DNA of 64,000 bases from positions 1 through 64,000 of the forward strand of contig JAQWPT010000003.1 of the NCBI GenBank assembly GCA_029245245.1. Direction: 5' to 3'. This DNA comes from Phycisphaerales bacterium (lineage in GTDB: Bacteria; Planctomycetota; Phycisphaerae; Phycisphaerales; SM1A02). Positions 1 through 29,701 of the stretch are shown piece after piece. The translations under genes were made by a program, and so were the position numbers. The notes beneath the pieces are model-generated. The model worked only from the letters and a program-made list of their open reading frames with translations, was not told the DNA's origin and ran no database searches. Each line of letters starts with the position of its first letter. The first letter of the stretch is position 1.

Positions 1-238
1 CTCCGGCAGCGCGTACATCTACGGTCCTCCTCCCACCCCGGCCACCGGCGCGTGCTGCGTGACGAACGGATGCACGGTCAACACTGAAGTCGCCTGCACC
101 GAACTCGGCGGCACCTGGACCGAAGGCGGCGTGTGCGCCGACTGTCCGGCTTCATGCGCCGGCGACACCAACGGTGACGGTGTCATCGACATCTTCGACC
201 TGCTGAACATGCTCGATGACTGGGGCACCTGCCCGTAA
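1..238 (+). CDS. C-terminal end of a secreted dockerin-like protein (5' truncated)
   Basis: The frame is open from base 2 and ends at TAA 236-238, so only the last 78 residues are visible. It shows a cysteine-rich stretch with the pattern GACC...GC...AC...GGTW...C, then a calcium-loop segment GDTNGDGVIDIFDLLNMLDD and a terminal WGTCP. Single terminal units of this type, like one half of a dockerin or an EF-hand-like loop, are common at the ends of exported planctomycete proteins. A related pair of units closes the metalloprotease at 16305-19121. The function of the missing N-terminal part cannot be told. Export and calcium binding are inferred from the motif only. Confidence 0.75.
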   Translation, partial: SGSAYIYGPPPTPATGACCVTNGCTVNTEVACTELGGTWTEGGVCADCPASCAGDTNGDGVIDIFDLLNMLDDWGTCP

Positions 239-2263: not shown

Positions 2264-2409
2264 ACAACTCACCCAGAGCGAACTTCGCGCCCGCGCCACC
2301 CGCGCACTGGTCGCAGGTGGCCCCCCCCTGCATCCAGTCACCGGTTCGACCTGCAGAAGCCCGCCACGTGGACCGACATCCAAGGTGTGAACGTACCTGG
2401 AGGTCACCC

Positions 2410-3591
2410 ATGTTCCTGAGGCGAAACCGGACAAGGCCCATCGCGGTCGACATCGGATCCGGATCCCTCAAGCTGGTCCAGGTCGGGGGCACCAACGATC
2501 GACAGATCATCGCCGCCACGGAACGCGCCGTGCCGGCGGAGGTGACCGACGACTGGAACTCCATGGTCCAGTGGCTCTCGACCGCACTTCCCGAATGCCT
2601 CGACGAGGTCGACTTCATCGGCCGACGCATGGTCATCGCCCTGCCCTCGAACTGGACCACGGTGCAGCACATCCAGGTCGATCCCGAGGACCTGCCCCTG
2701 GCCGACCAGATCGCCGCGGCATCCCTTCCGGAACTCGAAGAAGAGCCGATGACACGGATCATCCACGTCGGCGATTTCCTGCGCAAGGAACGCATGCGAT
2801 CCGAGATCATCTGCATGGCGTTTCCCCGGCCGTTCATCTTCAACCTCGTGGAACTGCTGCACCGGCGTGGCATGGAGATCATGGACCTCCGCACCCAGGT
2901 GTGCGCAATGGTCGGCGCATTCGATCACCTGCATCGGCGCACGGAAGACGCAGCCGTCGCCACCATGTACGTGGACCTCGGCACCGGCGGCACCAACTGC
3001 GCCATCACCAACGGTGCCGACCTGGTCTCGGCCCGCCGCATCAACATTGGTGGACGCCATTTCGATCAGGCCGTGGCCAGGCACCTCGGGTGCGACCTGG
3101 AAGCGGCACGGGCCTACCGCATCGCCCACGACCTGTCCGAGCAGCATGAAGCCGCCACACACAGCGAACCTCCCCTGGCCGGCGGCGAGCACCTCGCGGA
3201 TCGTCGACGAAACATGCGTCCCTCCTCCCTGGGATCGCCCATGGCTCCGCTGGGTCTCGGCTCAGGCGGCGTGGTACCGGACTGCCCTGACCTGCTGGAG
3301 ACCATCGTGGATGAACTCCGCATGGCCATCCGCTACGACGCGGGCCTCTTTCCAGATCGTTCCCTGGAACGCATCGTGTTCCTGGGATCCGGCGCCCAGT
3401 CCGATCGGACATGCCGCCACATCGTCCAGGCCCTGCAGGTTCCCGGGCAACGCGGTGATCCCCTGGCCAGGTACGACTGTCCACCAGGGACTCGATGTCC
3501 ATCGAACTGGAATGGGAACCCCCGCCCCAGCTGGGCCGTCAGCGTCGGCCTGTTTTCAAAGTCACGACGCAAGGAGCACCTCCATGCCTGA
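2410..3591 (+). CDS. pilM: Type IV pilus assembly protein PilM
   Basis: 393 aa actin-like ATPase that sits on the cytoplasmic face and recruits PilN to form the PilMNO(P) alignment complex. The N-terminus RPIAVDIGSGSLKLVQV is the phosphate-1 loop of the FtsA/PilM fold. The phosphate-2 region reads TMYVDLGTGGTNCAI and is followed by the typical GGRHFDQAVARHLGCDLEAA. The C-terminal adenosine motif is seen as IVFLGSGAQ. The ATG at 2410 was chosen because GGAGG lies just upstream and the family motif begins soon after. An in-frame upstream extension lacks conservation. The end overlaps pilN by 8 bp. Confidence 0.9.
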   Translation: MFLRRNRTRPIAVDIGSGSLKLVQVGGTNDRQIIAATERAVPAEVTDDWNSMVQWLSTALPECLDEVDFIGRRMVIALPSNWTTVQHIQVDPEDLPLADQIAAASLPELEEEPMTRIIHVGDFLRKERMRSEIICMAFPRPFIFNLVELLHRRGMEIMDLRTQVCAMVGAFDHLHRRTEDAAVATMYVDLGTGGTNCAITNGADLVSARRINIGGRHFDQAVARHLGCDLEAARAYRIAHDLSEQHEAATHSEPPLAGGEHLADRRRNMRPSSLGSPMAPLGLGSGGVVPDCPDLLETIVDELRMAIRYDAGLFPDRSLERIVFLGSGAQSDRTCRHIVQALQVPGQRGDPLARYDCPPGTRCPSNWNGNPRPSWAVSVGLFSKSRRKEHLHA

Positions 3592-4318
3592 GCATGAATC
3601 CTTTCTGCCACCGGAATACGTCGAGCAGCGGCGTGACCATCGCACCACGTTTCTGGCCATCGGCCTGTTCTGCGTCATCGTGGCCGCGATTCTTGCGGCA
3701 TTCCTGCATCGACAGTCCCAGTTGCAGCAGGTCATCGATGTACAGGAGCATGTCATCAAGCGCACCGATGAAGCGGGACTCCAGGTCGCGATGCTCACCG
3801 CGCTCCAGCAGTCGCGCCTGCAGATGCTCGAGCGAGCCGAACTGGCGGCCGCCCTCGTTGAACGCGTACCTCGATCGGTGCTCATGGCGGAGATGATCAA
3901 CCGGATGCCCGAAGGACTCGGGCTGACCGAATTCGACCTCGCCTCCACGCGGATCCGAACACCGCCGCCGGCAGCCGCCACGGCGGCACACGGCCGCCGC
4001 GCAGCACGCGGCGAGACGACGGACAAGGATTCGCCCAAGGTCGAGGTGCCACGGTACATGGTGCGAATGAAGATGAAGGGCATCGCGCCAACCGACCTTC
4101 ACGTGTCCCGGTTCCTCTCCTCGCTCAACGAGTACCAGCTGCTGCAGGATGTACGACTGGAATCGACCGAGGAGGACCTCGTCGAGGATGACATCGTCCG
4201 ACGATTCGAGATCACGTGCGCCCTGAAACCCAACGCCGATGTCCGATCCAGCGTGGACGGACACAATGCCGTACAGGATGTCGTGGAACAACTGCGACGA
4301 AACGAGGTGCCCTGGTGA
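3584..4318 (+). CDS. pilN: PilN-like type IV pilus inner-membrane protein
   Basis: 244 aa. A short cytoplasmic N-terminus (MPEHESFLPPEYVEQRRDHR) carries the FLPPEY segment that resembles the PilM-binding motif of PilN. One membrane helix follows (about residues 22-42, TTFLAIGLFCVIVAAILAAF). After it comes a periplasmic coiled-coil stretch and a ferredoxin-like domain (VPRYMVRMKMKGIAPTDLHV...). An Ala/Arg-rich linker lies near residues 125-145. The start has AAGGAG 7 nt upstream and overlaps the end of pilM; the stop overlaps the GTG of pilO by 4 bp. Position between pilM and pilO makes the assignment secure despite low sequence conservation. Confidence 0.82.
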   Translation: MPEHESFLPPEYVEQRRDHRTTFLAIGLFCVIVAAILAAFLHRQSQLQQVIDVQEHVIKRTDEAGLQVAMLTALQQSRLQMLERAELAAALVERVPRSVLMAEMINRMPEGLGLTEFDLASTRIRTPPPAAATAAHGRRAARGETTDKDSPKVEVPRYMVRMKMKGIAPTDLHVSRFLSSLNEYQLLQDVRLESTEEDLVEDDIVRRFEITCALKPNADVRSSVDGHNAVQDVVEQLRRNEVPW

Positions 4319-4902
4319 ACGGAATCGTACGTCAACTTGGTTTCATCATCGTCATGGTCGCCGTACCACTGGTCTGCTGGTACTTCGTGTTCCAACCCCA
4401 GAATGCTCTGATTGATTCCGTCCAGGAAGACATCCAGACCCGGCAGGAGAAACTCGACGAAGTCGAGGCAATGGCGGCGGACCTGGAGGACCTTGAGTCC
4501 ATCGTCCAGAACGGCCTGCATGCCATTGAACTGATCGAGTCGAAACTCCCTCGGCAGCAGGATGTCGAAAGCATTCTCGAACAGGTCTGGCAGACCGCCC
4601 GTTCCAACGGCCTCGTGGTCAAGTCGGTGCGAAGCAAGAAGCCCGTCACCGCCATGGTCTACATGGAACAGCCGCTGGATGTCGAACTCGAAGGACCGTT
4701 CGAGGGGTTCTACGCCTTCATGCTGGCGGTGGAGAAACTTCCCCGTATCACGCGCATCTTCGACCTGGAACTGGCCAAGATCACCCACCTCAGCGGGCCC
4801 TCGAAGGACGAACTTCCCCTGGGCTCGGTCCGGGCTGATTTCACCCTGAGTATCTACTTCTCCACTGGCAGAAGGACCGTGAGCATGGAGGCCACCAGAT
4901 GA
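4315..4902 (+). CDS. pilO: PilO-like type IV pilus inner-membrane protein
   Basis: 195 aa. It begins at a GTG that overlaps the pilN stop (GTGA), with GAGG upstream. One N-terminal membrane helix (LGFIIVMVAVPLVCWYFVF) is followed by a coiled coil (IDSVQEDIQTRQEKLDEVEA). A periplasmic domain then shows the PilO-like strand pattern VELEGPFEGFYAFMLAVEKL followed by PRITRIFDLELAKI. PilO pairs with PilN as a spacer between the ATPase/PilM and the outer-membrane parts. The stop overlaps the next gene by 4 bp (ATGA). The identification is firm from fold signs and order. Confidence 0.85.
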   Translation: MNGIVRQLGFIIVMVAVPLVCWYFVFQPQNALIDSVQEDIQTRQEKLDEVEAMAADLEDLESIVQNGLHAIELIESKLPRQQDVESILEQVWQTARSNGLVVKSVRSKKPVTAMVYMEQPLDVELEGPFEGFYAFMLAVEKLPRITRIFDLELAKITHLSGPSKDELPLGSVRADFTLSIYFSTGRRTVSMEATR

Positions 4903-5618
4903 ACGAGCACCACGACAACACGGATGACACCAGGGCTCATGACCAGGGATTCGAACCCGGCTTCGGCATGGAACTGCCCGTGGAGTACGACGAGGATCCA
5001 GGTGGTCTTGAATCCATGCGGAACGTTTCGCGCCGACGGCAGCGGATGCTGCTGGTGGCCGTCATCGTCTGCGGCATCGGCGCGGTGTGGGCACTGAAGA
5101 TCCTGGGTGGCGGCATGCAGGAAGCCAGTGGCGACACCGTGATGGAACAACTCATCGACCACTTCATCAGTGATTCACAGCAGGTCGACGAACACGCAGA
5201 TTCGACCGGTACCGTTGAATCAAGCGAACAGACGTTGCTGGTCCTGCAGGAGAGTTATCAGCAGCAGCAGATTCCCGTCGAAGGCCTTCGATGCAATCCC
5301 TTCCTGCTGAGCGTCTACCTCGCCACCAGCAGCAATGACGGCCACCCTGCGCCTGACAACACGGAACTTCAGCGAACGCGGCGGATGGAGGAACTCCACT
5401 CGCTCGTTGCGGATCTCGCCATCGACTCGACGCTCACCGGGGCGAGGCCGATGGCACGCATCGGTGGCGAACTGGTGATGGAAGGATCCACCCTTGCTGG
5501 AACTCCGGACAACATCGTCGTCACCCTCGTGCACGTCGATCGCGGGGTCGTCACGCTCGAAGCAGTGGACCCCGTACTCGGGCTGACCGGTCGATGGCAG
5601 CGAAACGTAGGACGCTGA
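4899..5618 (+). CDS. PilP-position single-pass membrane protein
   Basis: 239 aa. A 45-residue acidic cytoplasmic N-terminus leads into one membrane helix (about residues 50-67, RMLLVAVIVCGIGAVWALKI). The periplasmic part is predicted to have a Gln/Ser-rich middle (LVLQESYQQQQIPVEG) and a small beta-rich end (GGELVMEGSTLAGTPDNIVV). It sits exactly where pilP is found in pilMNOPQ clusters and overlaps pilO by 4 bp, so it is probably part of the alignment complex. It lacks an obvious lipoprotein box, unlike classic PilP. I recognise no family, so the role is by position only. Confidence 0.6.
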   Translation: MNEHHDNTDDTRAHDQGFEPGFGMELPVEYDEDPGGLESMRNVSRRRQRMLLVAVIVCGIGAVWALKILGGGMQEASGDTVMEQLIDHFISDSQQVDEHADSTGTVESSEQTLLVLQESYQQQQIPVEGLRCNPFLLSVYLATSSNDGHPAPDNTELQRTRRMEELHSLVADLAIDSTLTGARPMARIGGELVMEGSTLAGTPDNIVVTLVHVDRGVVTLEAVDPVLGLTGRWQRNVGR

Positions 5619-5630
5619 GGAGACACCAGC

Positions 5631-7427
5631 ATGCGATCCGAACTCGACTGGATTCCCAACTCATCCGATGCCATCCCGGCAACTTCATCCCAGGAGCGGT
5701 CACCGACTTCCGATGGCACCGGTGCTGCATCTCCGGCAACAACTGGAGATCTGGGCACGACGCTGATCAAGCGGGGACTTCTCGACAGCAACACGCTGGC
5801 CAACGCGCAGCGTGTCCTGCAGCAGTCACCGGGGCGTTCCCTCTCGAAGGTACTGGTCGACCTGGGCGTGGATGAGCACGCCATCATGCAGGTCATTGCC
5901 GAGCAGCATGGCATCACTCGCATGGACATCGGTGGTGACGATGTGGACACCCAGTTGGTGGAACGACTCGGCAGCGAGTACTGCCGAGAGCACCTGGTCC
6001 TGCCGATTCGTCGTGAGAAACATCGCATGCTCGTCGGAACCGCCGATCCGGATTCGATCTTCATCCTCGATGAGATCAAGGTGCGGCTGGGGGCCCATGC
6101 GATTCGTCATGTCCTGATCGATGCCGCAAACATCGTCAAGGTGCTCGACGAACTCGCCCACGAACTGCACGATGACTACGATGTTGAATCCATCCTCGCC
6201 GATGTCGAGGCTGACGACGTTGAACTGCATGAGCAGAAAAGCGACAGTGATGACGATGCACAGTCATCACCCGTCGTTCGGTACGTGAACCACATCATCC
6301 AATCCGCCGTTCGTGACGGCGCATCGGACATTCACATCGAACCCGACGAGAAATCACTGAAGGTCCGATTCCGAATCGACGGCGTGCTCTACGAGGTGAT
6401 GAGCCCCCCGCGGAGCATGCACGCCGCGATCACCTCGAGAATCAAGATCATGGCGCAACTGGACATCGCGGAACGCCGACTGCCGCAGGACGGACGGATC
6501 CGGGCCACCGTGCTCAGCCGCCCGCTCGATCTGCGTGTGTCCACCGTGCCGACTCCGCACGGTGAAAAGACCGTCATGCGACTGCTTGATAACCGGTCCA
6601 TCGACGTGCCCCTCGACGCCCTGGGCTTCCAGAGTGACACCCTGGAGACCTGGAAACAGGAGATCAGCCGACCGCATGGCATCATTCTCGTCACCGGACC
6701 GACCGGATCTGGCAAGACAACGACGCTGTACGCCTCGATCCAGCAGATGGACATCAAGCAGTTGAACGTATCCACCGTCGAAGACCCGGTGGAATACCAG
6801 CTCAACGACATCACCCAGATCCAGGTGCACGAACGCATCGGGCTGACCTTCTCGGGCACCCTGCGCAGCCTGCTCCGCCAGGATCCGGACGTGATCATGA
6901 TCGGTGAAATCCGTGACCAGGAGACGGCGACCATCGCAACCCAGGCCGCCCTGACCGGCCACCTCGTGCTCTCCACGCTCCATACGAATGATGCGCCTTC
7001 ATCGGTGACCCGACTGATCAACATCGGCATCGAACCGTTCCTCGTTGCCGGAGCCCTCAATGCAGTGCTGGCCCAGCGTCTTGCGCGGCGGATCTGCAGC
7101 CAGTGCCTCGAGGTTGAACCGGTCAGCAGCGATGTGGCCGACATCCTGTCGCGGTACGGGCACCATGCCGAAACACTCCCGGTCGGAAAGGGCTGCCGAG
7201 CATGCCGCGGCACCGGGTACAGCGGACGACTCGGACTCTACGAGTTTCTTCGGATGAACGACACGCTTCGCGACCGCGTGGCCTCAAGTCCCTCCGTCAC
7301 CGAGTTCACCCGGCTCTGCCGGGAACAGGGCATGAAGACCCTGCGCGAAGAAGGCATTCTTCGAGTGCTCGATGGCTCGACGTCCGTTGAGGAAGTCCTT
7401 CGCGTCACGGATGACTTCGGCCACTGA
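5631..7427 (+). CDS. pilB: GspE/PilB-type secretion or pilus-extension ATPase
   Basis: 598 aa hexameric ATPase that powers pilus or pseudopilus assembly from the cytoplasmic side. An MshEN/GspE N-terminal domain lies at about residues 45-110 (LIKRGLLDSNTLANAQRVLQ). The catalytic core has Walker A GPTGSGKTTTLYA near residue 356, an Asp box, Walker B DPDVIMIGEIRD and the His box HLVLSTLHTNDAPSS. A zinc-binding tetracysteine unit follows (CSQC ... CRACRGTGYSGR). It lies 12 nt after the preceding gene with GGAG upstream of the ATG. Whether it serves a pilus (PilB) or a type II secretion system (GspE) cannot be decided. No pilT, pilC or secretin gene is in the window. Confidence 0.9.
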   Translation: MRSELDWIPNSSDAIPATSSQERSPTSDGTGAASPATTGDLGTTLIKRGLLDSNTLANAQRVLQQSPGRSLSKVLVDLGVDEHAIMQVIAEQHGITRMDIGGDDVDTQLVERLGSEYCREHLVLPIRREKHRMLVGTADPDSIFILDEIKVRLGAHAIRHVLIDAANIVKVLDELAHELHDDYDVESILADVEADDVELHEQKSDSDDDAQSSPVVRYVNHIIQSAVRDGASDIHIEPDEKSLKVRFRIDGVLYEVMSPPRSMHAAITSRIKIMAQLDIAERRLPQDGRIRATVLSRPLDLRVSTVPTPHGEKTVMRLLDNRSIDVPLDALGFQSDTLETWKQEISRPHGIILVTGPTGSGKTTTLYASIQQMDIKQLNVSTVEDPVEYQLNDITQIQVHERIGLTFSGTLRSLLRQDPDVIMIGEIRDQETATIATQAALTGHLVLSTLHTNDAPSSVTRLINIGIEPFLVAGALNAVLAQRLARRICSQCLEVEPVSSDVADILSRYGHHAETLPVGKGCRACRGTGYSGRLGLYEFLRMNDTLRDRVASSPSVTEFTRLCREQGMKTLREEGILRVLDGSTSVEEVLRVTDDFGH

Positions 7428-16304: not shown

Positions 16305-19121
16305 TCAGAAGCAGCTGCCCCATGTCCCGATGACCAACAACAGGTCATTGACATCGATCATGCCGTCACCGGTGAGTTCCCCGTCGCACCAGGGGCAGGG
16401 ACCCCAGTTCATCAGGACGGCCAGCAGATCATCGATGCCCACGATTCCGTCATGATTGAAGTCGGTCGGGCACTGGCACTCATCAGGAATCCCATCGACA
16501 TTGACATCGACACTGAATCCGCTGAGCAGATCGCAGTCATCAGGACGACCGTTGCGGTTGCAGTCGATGGCGGTGCCGGGCATGAAGTCGAAGCCGGTGG
16601 GTTGCCACAGGTCCGTATCGTGACCGGTCACGTAGGAGCGGATGAAGATGCCCGAGATGCCGTCGAAGATGTACACGCGGGTCGAGTTGATGTGCAGGTC
16701 CCCGGTGTCCTCGCCCTCATGCATGTCGCCGTCGACGTCACCGTCGTCGCCTTCGTGGTCGTGCCCGTCACCATCACTCTCCTGGTAGGCGCCATGGCGA
16801 GACACGTAGAGGTTCCGATCGGGTCCGAGCCGAAGGCCCCATGGCTCATCCATGGTCAAGGCTGTCTCGGTGCCGCCATCGTTGAACACGCCCTTGAAGT
16901 CGCCGTGCTGCCCATCAAACCGAAGCACCTGCCTGGTTCCCATGCTGGCGACGACGATGTCTCCGCCGACCAGTTCCGCGATACCACGGGGACTGGCCAT
17001 GCCGCCGTTGTCGTTCTTGCTGATGAGCGTACCCAGGTGCTCACCGGTGGCCACGTCATAGGATTCGACCATGCCGACCGCCGAGACCACGAGGGCTCGT
17101 CCGTCCTGGGTCACGTGGATGTTCAGCGGAATGAAGTTCCATGGGGTTCCGGATGCGAAGACACCGAGGAACACCCCGGTCTCCGCATCGAACTCCATGA
17201 CCTCGTTTGAAGCCGTCGAACTCACCAGGATCGAACCCTGAGGAGTCAGGGCCAGTCCTGTCGGAGATTCGAGGCCGGCGGACGCGGGCACCAGGTCCTG
17301 CACCCATTCCCCGTGGTCGTCGAACTCGACGACGCGGCCGTCAAGGGTGGACGTAGCCAGGATCCGGCGGTCCCCGGTGATGGCCACTTCCCACACGGTC
17401 GGCACGTCGCCGCCATGCCCACTGCCAATTCGAGTCCCGACGATCGAGTGCATCTGTGCCAATGCACCACCGTGCTCCTCGTCGCGCCCCTCATGGGGCG
17501 GCGCATCGGATCCGATCCAGGTTGCCCAGGCACCACCGAGTTCCTCGAGATCGGTCTCACCATCGTCATCGCAGTCCTGGCAGGAATCCAGCACGAGGTC
17601 GCGGTCGAGGTCGAGTTCGGCATCAGCCTGGATCTGGTTGTAGTCCGACTGCCCGTCACCATTGCAGTCCACTTCGCATTCGTCGGGAACGCCATTGCCC
17701 CAGAGGTCGATGCTGGTGCCGTTGAGAATATCCAGGTCGTCCGGGAATGCGTTGCCATTGCAGTCGGGTTCGCATTCATCAGGAATCAGGTTGCCGTTGA
17801 GATCCAGAAGGGTGCCGGCAACCTCCTCCGGGTCCAGCAGTCCGTTGTCGTTGCAGTCCTCGCACTCGTCCGGCACGCCGTTGGCATTCACGTCGGCACT
17901 GGTGCCGGCGAGGATGTCCCCGGTATCCGAGACGGCGTTCCCGTTGCAGTCGCGGTAGAAGCAGTTGGGAAACTCGTCGTTGGCCTCGGCGAAATGCTCA
18001 CGCATCGCCTGACGGATCACGGTGTGGAATCGCACATCGGTCATCGCGTTGCCGCCACTGTTGGTCTGCGAGCAGTAGCTCATGATCGGACCGCGGATCG
18101 GGGCCGATGCGAGGTCGTCGCACTCGTCGAGTTCGTAGTTGTGGGTGTGCCAGGCTCCGCAATTGTGGCCGATCTCGTGGGCCGCGACGTGCACGTCGTA
18201 GTTGAAGACATCGGGACGGGTGATGTCACCCGTAAAGCCCAGTGCGTAGCCCATGACCGAGTAGCCGTAGCCCCGGCAGATCGCCGACAGCCAGGCCACG
18301 CCCCCGTAGGGCATGTCCCGCCGACCGGAAAAGAACTGGGCCAGGTTCCGGGGCACGTCGTCCATGTTCTGGTTCCAGTACTGCCGGAACTCGGACAGTG
18401 GGTCCTCGATATTGAACAGATCGTCCTCGGTCTCCCAGAGCCGGAGGTAGGTCATTTCCAGTCGCGTACCGGCGTCGCGCATGTAGATGTCGGCGATGAG
18501 TCCGTAGCAGAGGACGGCGTAGGCCGCAGCCTCGTCCGTCGACTCGAAGAGCTGGCGGTACTCCCAGTCCGTCTCGACCGCGATGCGCAATCGATACATG
18601 TCGGTGTCGGGCCCCGGCTCCTTCTCCTCACCGCTGCGTGGTTCACCGACCGCATGCCGACTCGGATCGAGCCCGCACATGGGCAGGTGGGGTGGGCGGG
18701 AGGATGTGAGTTCTGGCGAGTCCGTCTCGGCGAGGTGGTAGATCGAACCATCGCCTCTGTGCACGCGACCTCGCAGGTGGTTGCCATGCACGGCGATCAC
18801 GACATGCGAGTTCGGATCATTCTCGATCTGACCACGGAGCAGCCGGACCGAGGCTGGATCGAAGTCGAGCTCGACATCGACGCCACCACGATTTCCGATC
18901 ACGAACCTGGTCTCTGCAGTGGCCACCGAAAACGGAGCCAGGACGCAGGGAAGTGTCGTACCACTGGGCAGCGGCACCTGGAGGAGAACGGCCTCACCCA
19001 CTTCTCCCGGCACGGTGTCGGCCGCCAGGGGCAGCAGCGTGGGGCTCGATTTTCCGGGGGTGACGGGGCCCGTGGGGCTTCCGGCAGCCAGGACTGCAAC
19101 CAACGCAAATACGATCGTCAT
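16305..19121 (-). CDS. Large secreted zinc metalloprotease with Asp/Asn-rich repeats, beta-propeller and dockerin-like tail
   Basis: 938 aa. A signal peptide (MTIVFALVAVLAAGSPTG) is followed by a propeptide-like region and a reprolysin/M12-type catalytic domain with HEIGHNCGAWH at residues 315-325. About residues 390-520 hold repeats of the type DCNGN..PDD.DI..GTS.D...NGVPDECE, resembling calcium-binding thrombospondin-3 or dockerin loops. An NHL/SMP30-like beta-propeller follows, interrupted by a His/Asp/Glu-rich insert (DGDGHDHEGDDGDVDGDMHE). The end has two dockerin-like units (FNHDGIVGIDDLLAVLMNWG and LTGDGMIDVNDLLLVIGTWG). GGAG precedes the ATG. It is probably an exported, calcium-stabilised protease of surface or extracellular proteins; the substrate is unknown. 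Confidence 0.85.
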   Translation of the reverse strand: MTIVFALVAVLAAGSPTGPVTPGKSSPTLLPLAADTVPGEVGEAVLLQVPLPSGTTLPCVLAPFSVATAETRFVIGNRGGVDVELDFDPASVRLLRGQIENDPNSHVVIAVHGNHLRGRVHRGDGSIYHLAETDSPELTSSRPPHLPMCGLDPSRHAVGEPRSGEEKEPGPDTDMYRLRIAVETDWEYRQLFESTDEAAAYAVLCYGLIADIYMRDAGTRLEMTYLRLWETEDDLFNIEDPLSEFRQYWNQNMDDVPRNLAQFFSGRRDMPYGGVAWLSAICRGYGYSVMGYALGFTGDITRPDVFNYDVHVAAHEIGHNCGAWHTHNYELDECDDLASAPIRGPIMSYCSQTNSGGNAMTDVRFHTVIRQAMREHFAEANDEFPNCFYRDCNGNAVSDTGDILAGTSADVNANGVPDECEDCNDNGLLDPEEVAGTLLDLNGNLIPDECEPDCNGNAFPDDLDILNGTSIDLWGNGVPDECEVDCNGDGQSDYNQIQADAELDLDRDLVLDSCQDCDDDGETDLEELGGAWATWIGSDAPPHEGRDEEHGGALAQMHSIVGTRIGSGHGGDVPTVWEVAITGDRRILATSTLDGRVVEFDDHGEWVQDLVPASAGLESPTGLALTPQGSILVSSTASNEVMEFDAETGVFLGVFASGTPWNFIPLNIHVTQDGRALVVSAVGMVESYDVATGEHLGTLISKNDNGGMASPRGIAELVGGDIVVASMGTRQVLRFDGQHGDFKGVFNDGGTETALTMDEPWGLRLGPDRNLYVSRHGAYQESDGDGHDHEGDDGDVDGDMHEGEDTGDLHINSTRVYIFDGISGIFIRSYVTGHDTDLWQPTGFDFMPGTAIDCNRNGRPDDCDLLSGFSVDVNVDGIPDECQCPTDFNHDGIVGIDDLLAVLMNWGPCPWCDGELTGDGMIDVNDLLLVIGTWGSCF

Positions 19122-28492: not shown

Positions 28493-29701
28493 TCAGGGGC
28501 TGATCCCCCCGCCGCCACCGAGAATGACGGGCCGGGCCTGCCGCTTGTCCAGATCAAGAATTCGAATGCCTCGCCCAGGCTGCTGGTCATTGCGACCCTC
28601 GAGGTCCCAGAGGGAGGACCACTGCTCCTGCTGATCGACATGACCGTCGAGAAACAGCATCAGGCACTGGCCGCCATAGCGGAAGTCAACTTCCTGTTCG
28701 CACGATCCACTCTGCTCGGGCTTGGAGGATTCGCCTCCAACTGCATCCCTCAGTTCGGCAGCTACCTGGAAGGACCGAACCGTGTCGACGTAGTAGTCGG
28801 CTTGTTGTGTCGTGTAGTCGCTGGTGCCCAGGAATCCGGGGGTCCCACCGATTGTCTCACCCGCAAAGGAATCGACCAGGAACAGCGAGCGAGCCGGGGC
28901 CTTGATCTGGCCTTCCGACCAATAGCGATCCGCCTTCGAATCTTCCTGGTCACCGCTGACATCACGTGCGCTTCGAGCGTCGAAGAAGTTGTTCGCGGCG
29001 AAGAAGCCCGGCATGCCGCCCTCCCAGGCCCCATTGCCTCGCGGCAAGGGGAGGCCGACCGGGCCATTCTCGCCGTCGGTTCCGGCCAGTGCCCTGTTGA
29101 AGTCCGTCTGGTCGCCGCTGCCATCCCACCGAGGCCAGTTCCAACTGTTGACCACGACGCTTCGCAGCGGGTTCTTCTCCCAGCGAGGATTGTCCTCGTA
29201 GAACGTTCGATCCGGCGGGGTGTACTTGAAGGAACGGTAGAGATCGCCGCCACCACTGCCCCAGTCGTCGATGGGCATGTCCGCCATGGCCATGCTGTCG
29301 CCGAGGTTGCTTTCGGCCCAGAGAATGTCAGCCCAACTGCCCTTGTGGAGCAGTTCCGTACCTGGTTCCTGGGGTGCCTGGTAGGGATTGTTGTTGTCGA
29401 TCCACTCGACGCGGTCATCGTTGAGTTCGTAGGCCATCCGGGAGGCCGCTCCACCGATCGAATCGCCTTCCTCGTCGGAGCGGTCGAACTGGCTGGGAAC
29501 GATCCTCGCATCATGCGAGTTCGTGTAGTGCTGCATGAACTGATTGATCTCACGCAGGTTGTTCTGGGAGCGAAGCAACGCATCGGACTGGCTGAAACCG
29601 CTGCTGGCATAAAGCACCAGCGAAATCAGGATCGCCAGCATCATCATGACCACGAGGACCTCGGTCAGCGTGAAGGCATGTCGTGGATTCGATGTCTGCA
29701 T
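28493..29701 (-). CDS. Prepilin-type N-methylated pseudopilin (PulG-like)
   Basis: 402 aa. The short basic leader MQTSNPRHA is followed by the prepilin motif FTLTEVLVVMMMLAILISLV, with Ala instead of the usual Gly before the cleavage site and Glu at position +5. The long globular part is hydrophilic and Trp/Asp-rich, with the planctomycete-type C-terminal signature RYGGQCLMLFLDGHVDQQ. It is much longer than classic pseudopilins (about 150-200 aa), as often in planctomycetes. It may be assembled by the pilMNO/pilB machinery at 2410-7427, but is encoded far from it. TTTTTGGAG precedes the start, and a terminator follows its end. Confidence 0.85.
   Translation of the reverse strand: MQTSNPRHAFTLTEVLVVMMMLAILISLVLYASSGFSQSDALLRSQNNLREINQFMQHYTNSHDARIVPSQFDRSDEEGDSIGGAASRMAYELNDDRVEWIDNNNPYQAPQEPGTELLHKGSWADILWAESNLGDSMAMADMPIDDWGSGGGDLYRSFKYTPPDRTFYEDNPRWEKNPLRSVVVNSWNWPRWDGSGDQTDFNRALAGTDGENGPVGLPLPRGNGAWEGGMPGFFAANNFFDARSARDVSGDQEDSKADRYWSEGQIKAPARSLFLVDSFAGETIGGTPGFLGTSDYTTQQADYYVDTVRSFQVAAELRDAVGGESSKPEQSGSCEQEVDFRYGGQCLMLFLDGHVDQQEQWSSLWDLEGRNDQQPGRGIRILDLDKRQARPVILGGGGGISP

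Follow-up and report, generated by a model that had tools for sequence, protein, structure and literature searches.

A dockerin-fold tail on a Phycisphaerales protease, in a genome with no detected cohesin, and its exchange among relatives of the protease body

Dockerins are usually taken to indicate cohesin scaffolds, and the genome considered here carries at least 133 dockerin-bearing reading frames and no detectable cohesin. What does the tail do in such an organism? The question is raised by a 64,000-nucleotide stretch of a Phycisphaerales bacterium (assembly GCA_029245245.1, contig JAQWPT010000003.1, positions 1 to 64,000), hereafter the window, in which a mosaic protease, P0001, is encoded on the minus strand. 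Its open reading frame is exactly the interval 16305..19121, from an ATG start and with the stop codon included, and specifies the single 938-residue protein proposed in the initial annotation. On balance, we favour the reading that P0001 is exported and then kept either at the cell surface or outside it, and that its tail is a calcium-binding dockerin tag read by a lineage-specific partner. The most informative point, judged from sequence comparison, is that relatives of P0001 retain the protease body and exchange the tail.

The tail comprises residues 882-938 (16308..16478, minus strand), where profile and structure prediction delineate two calcium-loop/helix units with a WG..C signature. 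Predicted alone with AlphaFold2 (AF2) from 12 sequences, it yields two loop-helix units with a predicted local distance difference test (pLDDT) score of 84.4 and helices at 20-28 and 48-56. The model superposes on the dockerin 2y3n_B with a VIA Z of 9.4 and 1.8 Å over 58 residues. The VIA alignments are second looks at Foldseek hits; the thirteen best of these were all cohesin-dockerin or scaffoldin entries, but the best E was 0.077 and no E fell under 0.001. A search of the PDB with the tail profile returned the same dockerin, 2y3n_B, as its best match (E 5.9e-6), and we base the fold assignment on this match and the Z of 9.4 taken together. The tail has the two F-hand calcium loops, each followed by a short helix, that define the dockerin fold. 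The initial annotation had described two dockerin-like units; the likeness holds, while the model predicts that the units form one dockerin fold rather than two domains. The loops would be expected to bind calcium.

The family to which this tail belongs is already named in NCBIfam as the GC-type dockerin, NF041540. This model gives no match to P0001 at E≤1 (its curated cut-off is 29 bits), but it returns 64 matches at E≤1 across the genome, with nine places over the cut-off alone and one together with its neighbours. The P0001 orthologues L159 (65.8 bits) and L160 (37 bits), whose helices are DFxxF..GC-like, also exceed it. As a result of these ten places and two orthologues, kinship with GC-type dockerins is plain, and the form found in P0001 is one that the model does not cover. 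Sequence thus identifies the tail as a divergent WG subtype of this family; the WG form is new and is largely missed by the current NCBI model. Its profile, A1, was built from 31 tails hand-picked as cleanly readable and has helices of the form DLL..VI..WG-x-C; the other 30 tails are only 34-52% identical to that of P0001 and keep the W..G signature.

The unit is widely used in its genome, which is 2.69 Mb long and 96.5% complete. At E≤0.01, A1 finds at least 141 tail matches in the 133 or more frames, a lower bound given that 150 of 209 candidates were scored. The unit lies at the C-terminus, within 22 residues of the stop, in 110 of 133 frames. Signal-peptide-like starts occur in 101 of 117 complete tail frames (the 16 of 133 that are open at an end being left out) versus 13 of 35 control frames of the window, according to a crude, home-made rule; membrane proteins are among the 13 controls that pass it, and the frame of P0001 itself is one of the 35. 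The unit is therefore neither rare nor confined to proteins without such starts, and the initial annotation's suggestion that it is used across the exported proteins of this organism is borne out.

The proteins that bear the tail are diverse. Pfam searches of 46 longer and 70 shorter frames found, among the 25 of 48 and 25 of 39 families listed for the two sets, M12B, astacin, subtilase, C25 with propeptide, papain-type and other peptidases, as well as beta-helix proteins (4 longer and 12 shorter frames), esterases, a lytic polysaccharide monooxygenase and a polysaccharide lyase. One tail protein contains a lamin-tail domain. Dockerin_1 is matched at E≤0.001 in 18 of the 46 longer and 24 of the 70 shorter proteins. 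Also present are a Porphyromonas-type peptidyl-arginine deiminase and two gingipain-family C25 peptidases with propeptide; C25 peptidases and Porphyromonas-type deiminases are typical type IX cargo in Bacteroidota. In addition, five near-identical ends of a distinct type (CLYDLNGDGVVDQVDRRRVSSAIRRG...DNYGECP), one of them only partly covered, lie near the starts of contigs C7 and C5 of this genome (L111:191-4877, L075:16-1763). Their sequences mark the CLYDLNGDGVVDQVDRRRVSSAIRRG-type ends as a recently duplicated, distinct class of dockerin-like tail.

Comparison of relatives provides the strongest clue to function. The named collection contains 18 loci related to P0001, of which 12 (L154-L165) share the body and six share only the repeats and tail; the nearest body relative, at 76%, is from ‘Phycisphaerales bacterium UBA3160’. 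In a wider survey of the class, a body profile at E≤1e-60 matched 101 of 397 genomes, shorter protease-only relatives included. Bodies are 37-81% identical among relatives (alignment A3), with orthologues at 37-78% identity to P0001, yet their ends are not alike. The end could be read in 64 of the 75 body frames; ten of the others are truncated at a stretch or contig boundary and one is a duplicate. All 16 ends from family f1, to which our genome belongs (14 genomes), carry a DL..LL..W tail under a loose rule, with a terminal WG..C in five; one of these, L241, was filed as ‘other’ by the rule and assigned by eye. All 18 ends from family f2 (14 genomes) carry a GC-type tail. The f2 rule, which asks for a D-[FVYL]...F/L core and a GC end, is likewise loose: L183, L191, L192 and L195 are sub-variants, the last three with FLN.W for F..F, and the rule also took the f7 end L202 while its near-twin L176 was filed as ‘other’. 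The 30 frames of families f7, f18 and f21 mostly have other ends, many dockerin-like by eye and some Ig-like or Cys-rich. In two relatives the replacement resembles a different kind of signal altogether. L203, an f18 relative, carries an IPTL-CTERM sorting domain at its end (TIGR04174, 22.7 bits against a cut-off of 20.5). The Myxococcota relative L158 ends in CGIGFELAPLLLGLAWWRRRR, with a layout of Cys, hydrophobic stretch and RRRR, the arrangement that PMC11980579 gives for MYXO-CTERM. The MYXO-CTERM model TIGR03901 did not report this tail at E≤5 and gave 18 weak matches, none over the cut-off, on the genome of L158; on planctomycete genomes it also gave weak matches, a few of them over the cut-off, so that the search did not discriminate. 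The L158 end does resemble, weakly (E 0.18), the C-terminal portion of a model for a myxosortase-dependent phosphatase.

Tail type also tends to follow the genome rather than the protein. At five loci, all eight tails of other proteins near a P0001 orthologue best match the orthologue tail of their own genome (three in L155, two in L159 and one each in L160, L164 and L165), and the bodies of these eight proteins resemble the P0001 body no more than expected by chance (lowest E 0.57). The eight are not independent cases, because two of the L155 tails are nearly identical; tails from L168 and L169 were left out, these loci having no orthologous body, as was an incomplete unit in L155 (205-354). 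In our genome, 117 of 124 frame ends, internal units included, best match a WG-type orthologue tail and seven a non-WG one. Reciprocal profiles agree, each being built mainly from the lineage that it favours. In G003, G013 and G032 the f2-type profile A5 matches every candidate up to the limit of 150 scored (best E 8.4e-30), and in three more f2 genomes it matches 123 of 150, 117 of 150 and 68 of 98, compared with 19 of 150 in our genome (best E 3.5e-9) and 0 of 34 in G167. Conversely, the best E of A1 is 1e-25 in our genome and 1.8e-13 to 3.5e-11 in the four g12 genomes (G003, G013, G032, G046). Tail swapping and genome-specific tail types together fit a tag for sorting or anchoring that a lineage-specific partner recognises, and it is in this indirect way, through sequence comparison, that the initial annotation's idea of such a signal gains support.

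The cohesin-like partner that the initial annotation suggested seeking did not appear: the cohesin model PF00963 has no match at E≤1 in our genome and none at E≤0.01 in the 11 genomes of family f1, ten of which are tail-rich (of about 33 A1 candidates scored, at least 28 match). There may nevertheless be a cohesin whose divergence puts it beyond the reach of Pfam. Across 198 genomes of the class, with about 33 A1 candidates scored in each, A1 tails (E≤1e-5) occur in 94 and cohesins (E≤0.01) in 29. A hand count finds both in 13 genomes, tails only in 81, cohesins only in 16 and neither in 88, which amounts to no association for tails so defined, A1 not covering every dockerin type. The sole f1 genome of the 11 without A1 tails, G167 (one contig, 3.8 Mb), has no A1, A5 or body match and is a natural control for finding the receptor. 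Exosortase is found in 194 of the 198 genomes, including ours; because it is near-universal in the class, it singles out nothing and does not track tails. The type IX translocon protein SprA (PF14349) was found in none of nine genomes, a search in which control genomes gave no match either. By reading of the window, PilM/N/O-like and GspE/PilB-like genes and a pseudopilin-like start are seen at 2317-7427 (plus strand) and 28493-29701 (minus strand), which points to a possible type II secretion or type IV pilus apparatus.

The tail also varies in shape. Besides two-loop tails there are a loop-deleted WGxPYxVDDLL form, in which the second calcium loop is gone and the second helix kept, and a single-unit form. 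A sorting rule counted roughly 20 single-unit and 19 loop-deleted (PY) tails, totals that are rough in that frames 44 and 55, filed as PY, are two-unit tails and frames 52, 63, 79, 121 and 122, filed as single, have a second helix. The loop-deleted profile A9, searched at E≤1e-10 in 18 genomes, has 23 matches in our genome, 26 in a genome of the same genus, seven in G137 and one apiece in G329 and G392; the remaining 13 have none. On this distribution, the form looks young and local. A single-unit tail closes the protein at 1-238, the recurrence of the terminal unit reported in the initial annotation. The unit is there, as frame and tail profile agree, with three corrections: it lies on the plus strand, it is the 3' end of a protein that runs off the contig (the window starts at contig base 1), and it has one calcium loop versus two in the P0001 tail. 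It scores 16.1 bits with NF041540, under the 29-bit cut-off. Directly before this tail, at 1-150 (plus strand), stands a Cys-rich ACC repeat, GACC..G.C.......C...GG.W.G....C....C, which also precedes single-loop tails elsewhere, for example in L117, L101 and L105.

Cysteines in the tail vary together. Among 67 two-unit tails, the outer pair (before loop 1 and after the last WG) is complete in 45, absent in 18 and mismatched in 4 (Fisher p 2.5e-12), and the inner pair is complete in 38, absent in 23 and mismatched in 6 (p 9e-13). This covariation suggests that there are probably two disulphides, the outer one closing the domain.

Several observations weigh against a tag read by a lineage-specific partner. 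The unit is internal in 23 of the 133 frames, and the N-terminus of P0001 itself fails the home-made signal-peptide rule. The covariation of cysteines may reflect subfamily history rather than disulphides. Among f2 genomes, three that lack a body match (G090, G096, G113) have 32-33 A1 matches of 33 scored, with best E from 3.5e-15 to 4.1e-14, and genomes outside the order (G006, G106, G176) also have 33 of 33; because of these six, tail type is at best a trait of genomes or genera and not of whole families. Given exosortase, the dockerin tag is not the only possible sorting route of this genome. Codon choice at the conserved Leu positions of the tails is more uniform (pairwise identity 0.63, 0.53) than at background Leu codons (0.34), so duplication by shared descent, or codon bias, is part of the story, and uniform tails within a genome could arise from domain duplication alone. 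This last point leads to the possibility that no receptor exists and the tail passively caps the C-terminus, stabilised by calcium, having spread within genomes by domain duplication; with this the codon similarity, the internal copies and the failure to find a partner would all agree. We think such a cap quite unlikely in view of the strong C-terminal placement, the exchange of the tail for an IPTL-CTERM sorting signal in an orthologue, and the retention of the W..G signature in tails that have otherwise diverged so far.

Two other explanations keep a partner or enzyme and differ in its nature. Dockerins could be serving in a classical cohesin-dockerin assembly, or ‘planctosome’, whose scaffold cohesin either escapes Pfam through divergence or is encoded in the portion of the genome that is missing. 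PMC6461901 (2019) proposes that M12B and M14 peptidases of freshwater planctomycetes are tethered by cohesin-dockerin pairs, and the lamin-tail domain seen in one tail protein is a domain of the anchor protein in that model. The dockerin fold, nearest a type II dockerin, and the occurrence of cohesins in the class, in part alongside A1-type tails, point the same way. Nevertheless, the absence of cohesin matches from our genome and from a family that is almost uniformly tail-rich, the independence of tails and cohesins across the class, and the poor fit of single-loop and loop-deleted tails to a two-fold dockerin make this assembly unlikely here. Far less probable is a covalent processing signal comparable to MYXO-CTERM, with either a lipid attached to the terminal Cys or the end cut and joined by a sortase-like enzyme. 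A terminal Cys is common in tails, and L158 has a MYXO-CTERM-like end in place of the tail, together with its weak myxosortase-dependent phosphatase match; this end, however, is not over the MYXO-CTERM cut-off. Moreover, both outer cysteines are absent from more than a quarter of the two-unit tails, the terminal Cys co-occurs with the Cys before loop 1 as expected of a disulphide, and exosortase does not track tails. The tripartite C-terminal signals, including MYXO-CTERM, described in PMC11980579 consist of a motif, a membrane helix and an Arg-rich basic end, and the tails have neither of the last two.

The rest of P0001 is consistent with an exported enzyme built from several modules, all on the minus strand. 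The hydrophobic N-terminus (MTIVFALVAVLAAGSPTG..., 19047..19121) is signal-peptide-like, its failure under the crude rule reflecting the lack of K/R. It is followed by a beta-rich domain in the AF2 secondary structure (residues 45-129, 18735..18989), a putative prodomain. The initial annotation's HEIGH metalloprotease is confirmed as a metzincin catalytic domain of the M12B/reprolysin type by Pfam and the AF2 model (residues 176-383, 17973..18596): Pfam Reprolysin_5 matches at E 1.9e-14, and three further M12B models are also over their cut-offs. The zinc motif HEIGHNCGAWH (residues 315-325, 18147..18179), with its HExxHxxGxxH pattern, is followed downstream by the Met-turn MSY, and MSY and the zinc-binding residues are invariant in an alignment of 13 sequences. 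On sequence, P0001 is an M12B-type zinc protease. Pfam matches to SnoaL_3 and PQQ_2 were below the cut-off and were set aside.

Between catalytic domain and tail lie repeats and a propeller. The Asp/Asn-rich repeats of the initial annotation are present as Asp/Asn/Cys-rich CNxN..DxNxNGxPDEC units (residues 391-530, 17532..17951), thrombospondin-type-3-like by eye, and neither Pfam nor NCBIfam returns a match to them at E≤1. P0001 orthologues keep many of their positions unchanged, and by hand count such repeats also occur in about seven other frames of the genome. An additional CNRN..PDEC repeat, seen in the sequence, lies between propeller and tail (residues 853-883, 16473..16565). The annotated NHL-like propeller with a His/Asp-rich insert also stands (residues 534-850, 16572..17522): it is weak in Pfam (NHL, 20.3 bits against a cut-off of 20), appears in the AF2 model and is clear by fold (6d69, E 2.2e-13). 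Its insert, at residues about 777-812 (16686..16793) by sequence and alignment, has low model confidence. Several orthologues have an insert of this kind, though a hypervariable one, and others lack it; in L154, L158 and L160 it varies in length and letters and stays H/D/E-rich. It is a possible metal-binding loop. The AF2 model of whole P0001, from 13 sequences, is moderate, with a mean pLDDT of 66.1.

With these parts, the favoured reading of an exported, surface-held protease with a dockerin tag can be set out as a sequence of steps. To judge from their signal-peptide-like starts, the cargo proteins would be exported by Sec. P0001 would probably be self-inhibited by its prodomain, and the rod of CNxN..PDEC repeats and the propeller would probably space the protease and bind substrate. 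After export, the tag would fold with calcium and probably be closed by a disulphide from the Cys before loop 1 to the Cys after the last WG. The folded C-terminal tag would then be recognised by a lineage-specific partner, which would sort or anchor the cargo at the surface; the putative partner would be something other than a Pfam-detectable cohesin. A more tentative extension, possible rather than probable, is that Phycisphaerales-type bacteria run cohesin-free dockerin sorting in general, with lineage ‘codes’ (WG, F..GC and others) that are read by a co-evolving receptor or secretion apparatus and borne by anywhere from tens to over 150 proteins in each genome. As part of this extension, the tag may in our own genus have shrunk to a single calcium loop or to the loop-deleted ‘WGxPYxVDDLL’ form.

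If this is true, cohesin-free dockerin sorting would be a class of surface display that has been missed because dockerins are read as parts of cellulosomes. That one conserved protease body has had its tail exchanged, in one case for a recognised sorting signal, allows the question ‘what reads GC-type dockerins?’ to be tested. A search of one literature collection found no paper on ‘GC-type dockerin’, nor on dockerin with ‘sorting signal’ and ‘PEP-CTERM’.

The closest published idea found is the ‘planctosome’ of PMC6461901. In common with P0001, it concerns a planctomycete M12B protease with a dockerin, and its model includes thrombospondin type 3 (TSP3) repeats and a lamin-tail protein. In contrast, that model rests on cohesins, and none was found in our genome or its family. 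Compared with cellulosomal dockerins (Dockerin_1; type II, 2y3n), the tail is alike in fold and calcium-loop sequence and differs in its WG..C end, in the lack of a detected cohesin and in its listed cargo, which is mostly not cellulolytic. The tripartite signals, here IPTL-CTERM and MYXO-CTERM-like ends, are likewise short C-terminal modules and occur where the tail would be on a P0001-type body, whereas the tail is a folded calcium-loop domain without a membrane segment or Arg-rich end. The nearest kin are the NF041540 GC-type dockerin proteins, which share the C-terminal dockerin unit and its placement in proteins with signal-peptide-like starts; the tails described here are set apart by DLL..VI..W-G-x-C in place of DFxxF..GC and by the occurrence of single-loop and loop-deleted variants.

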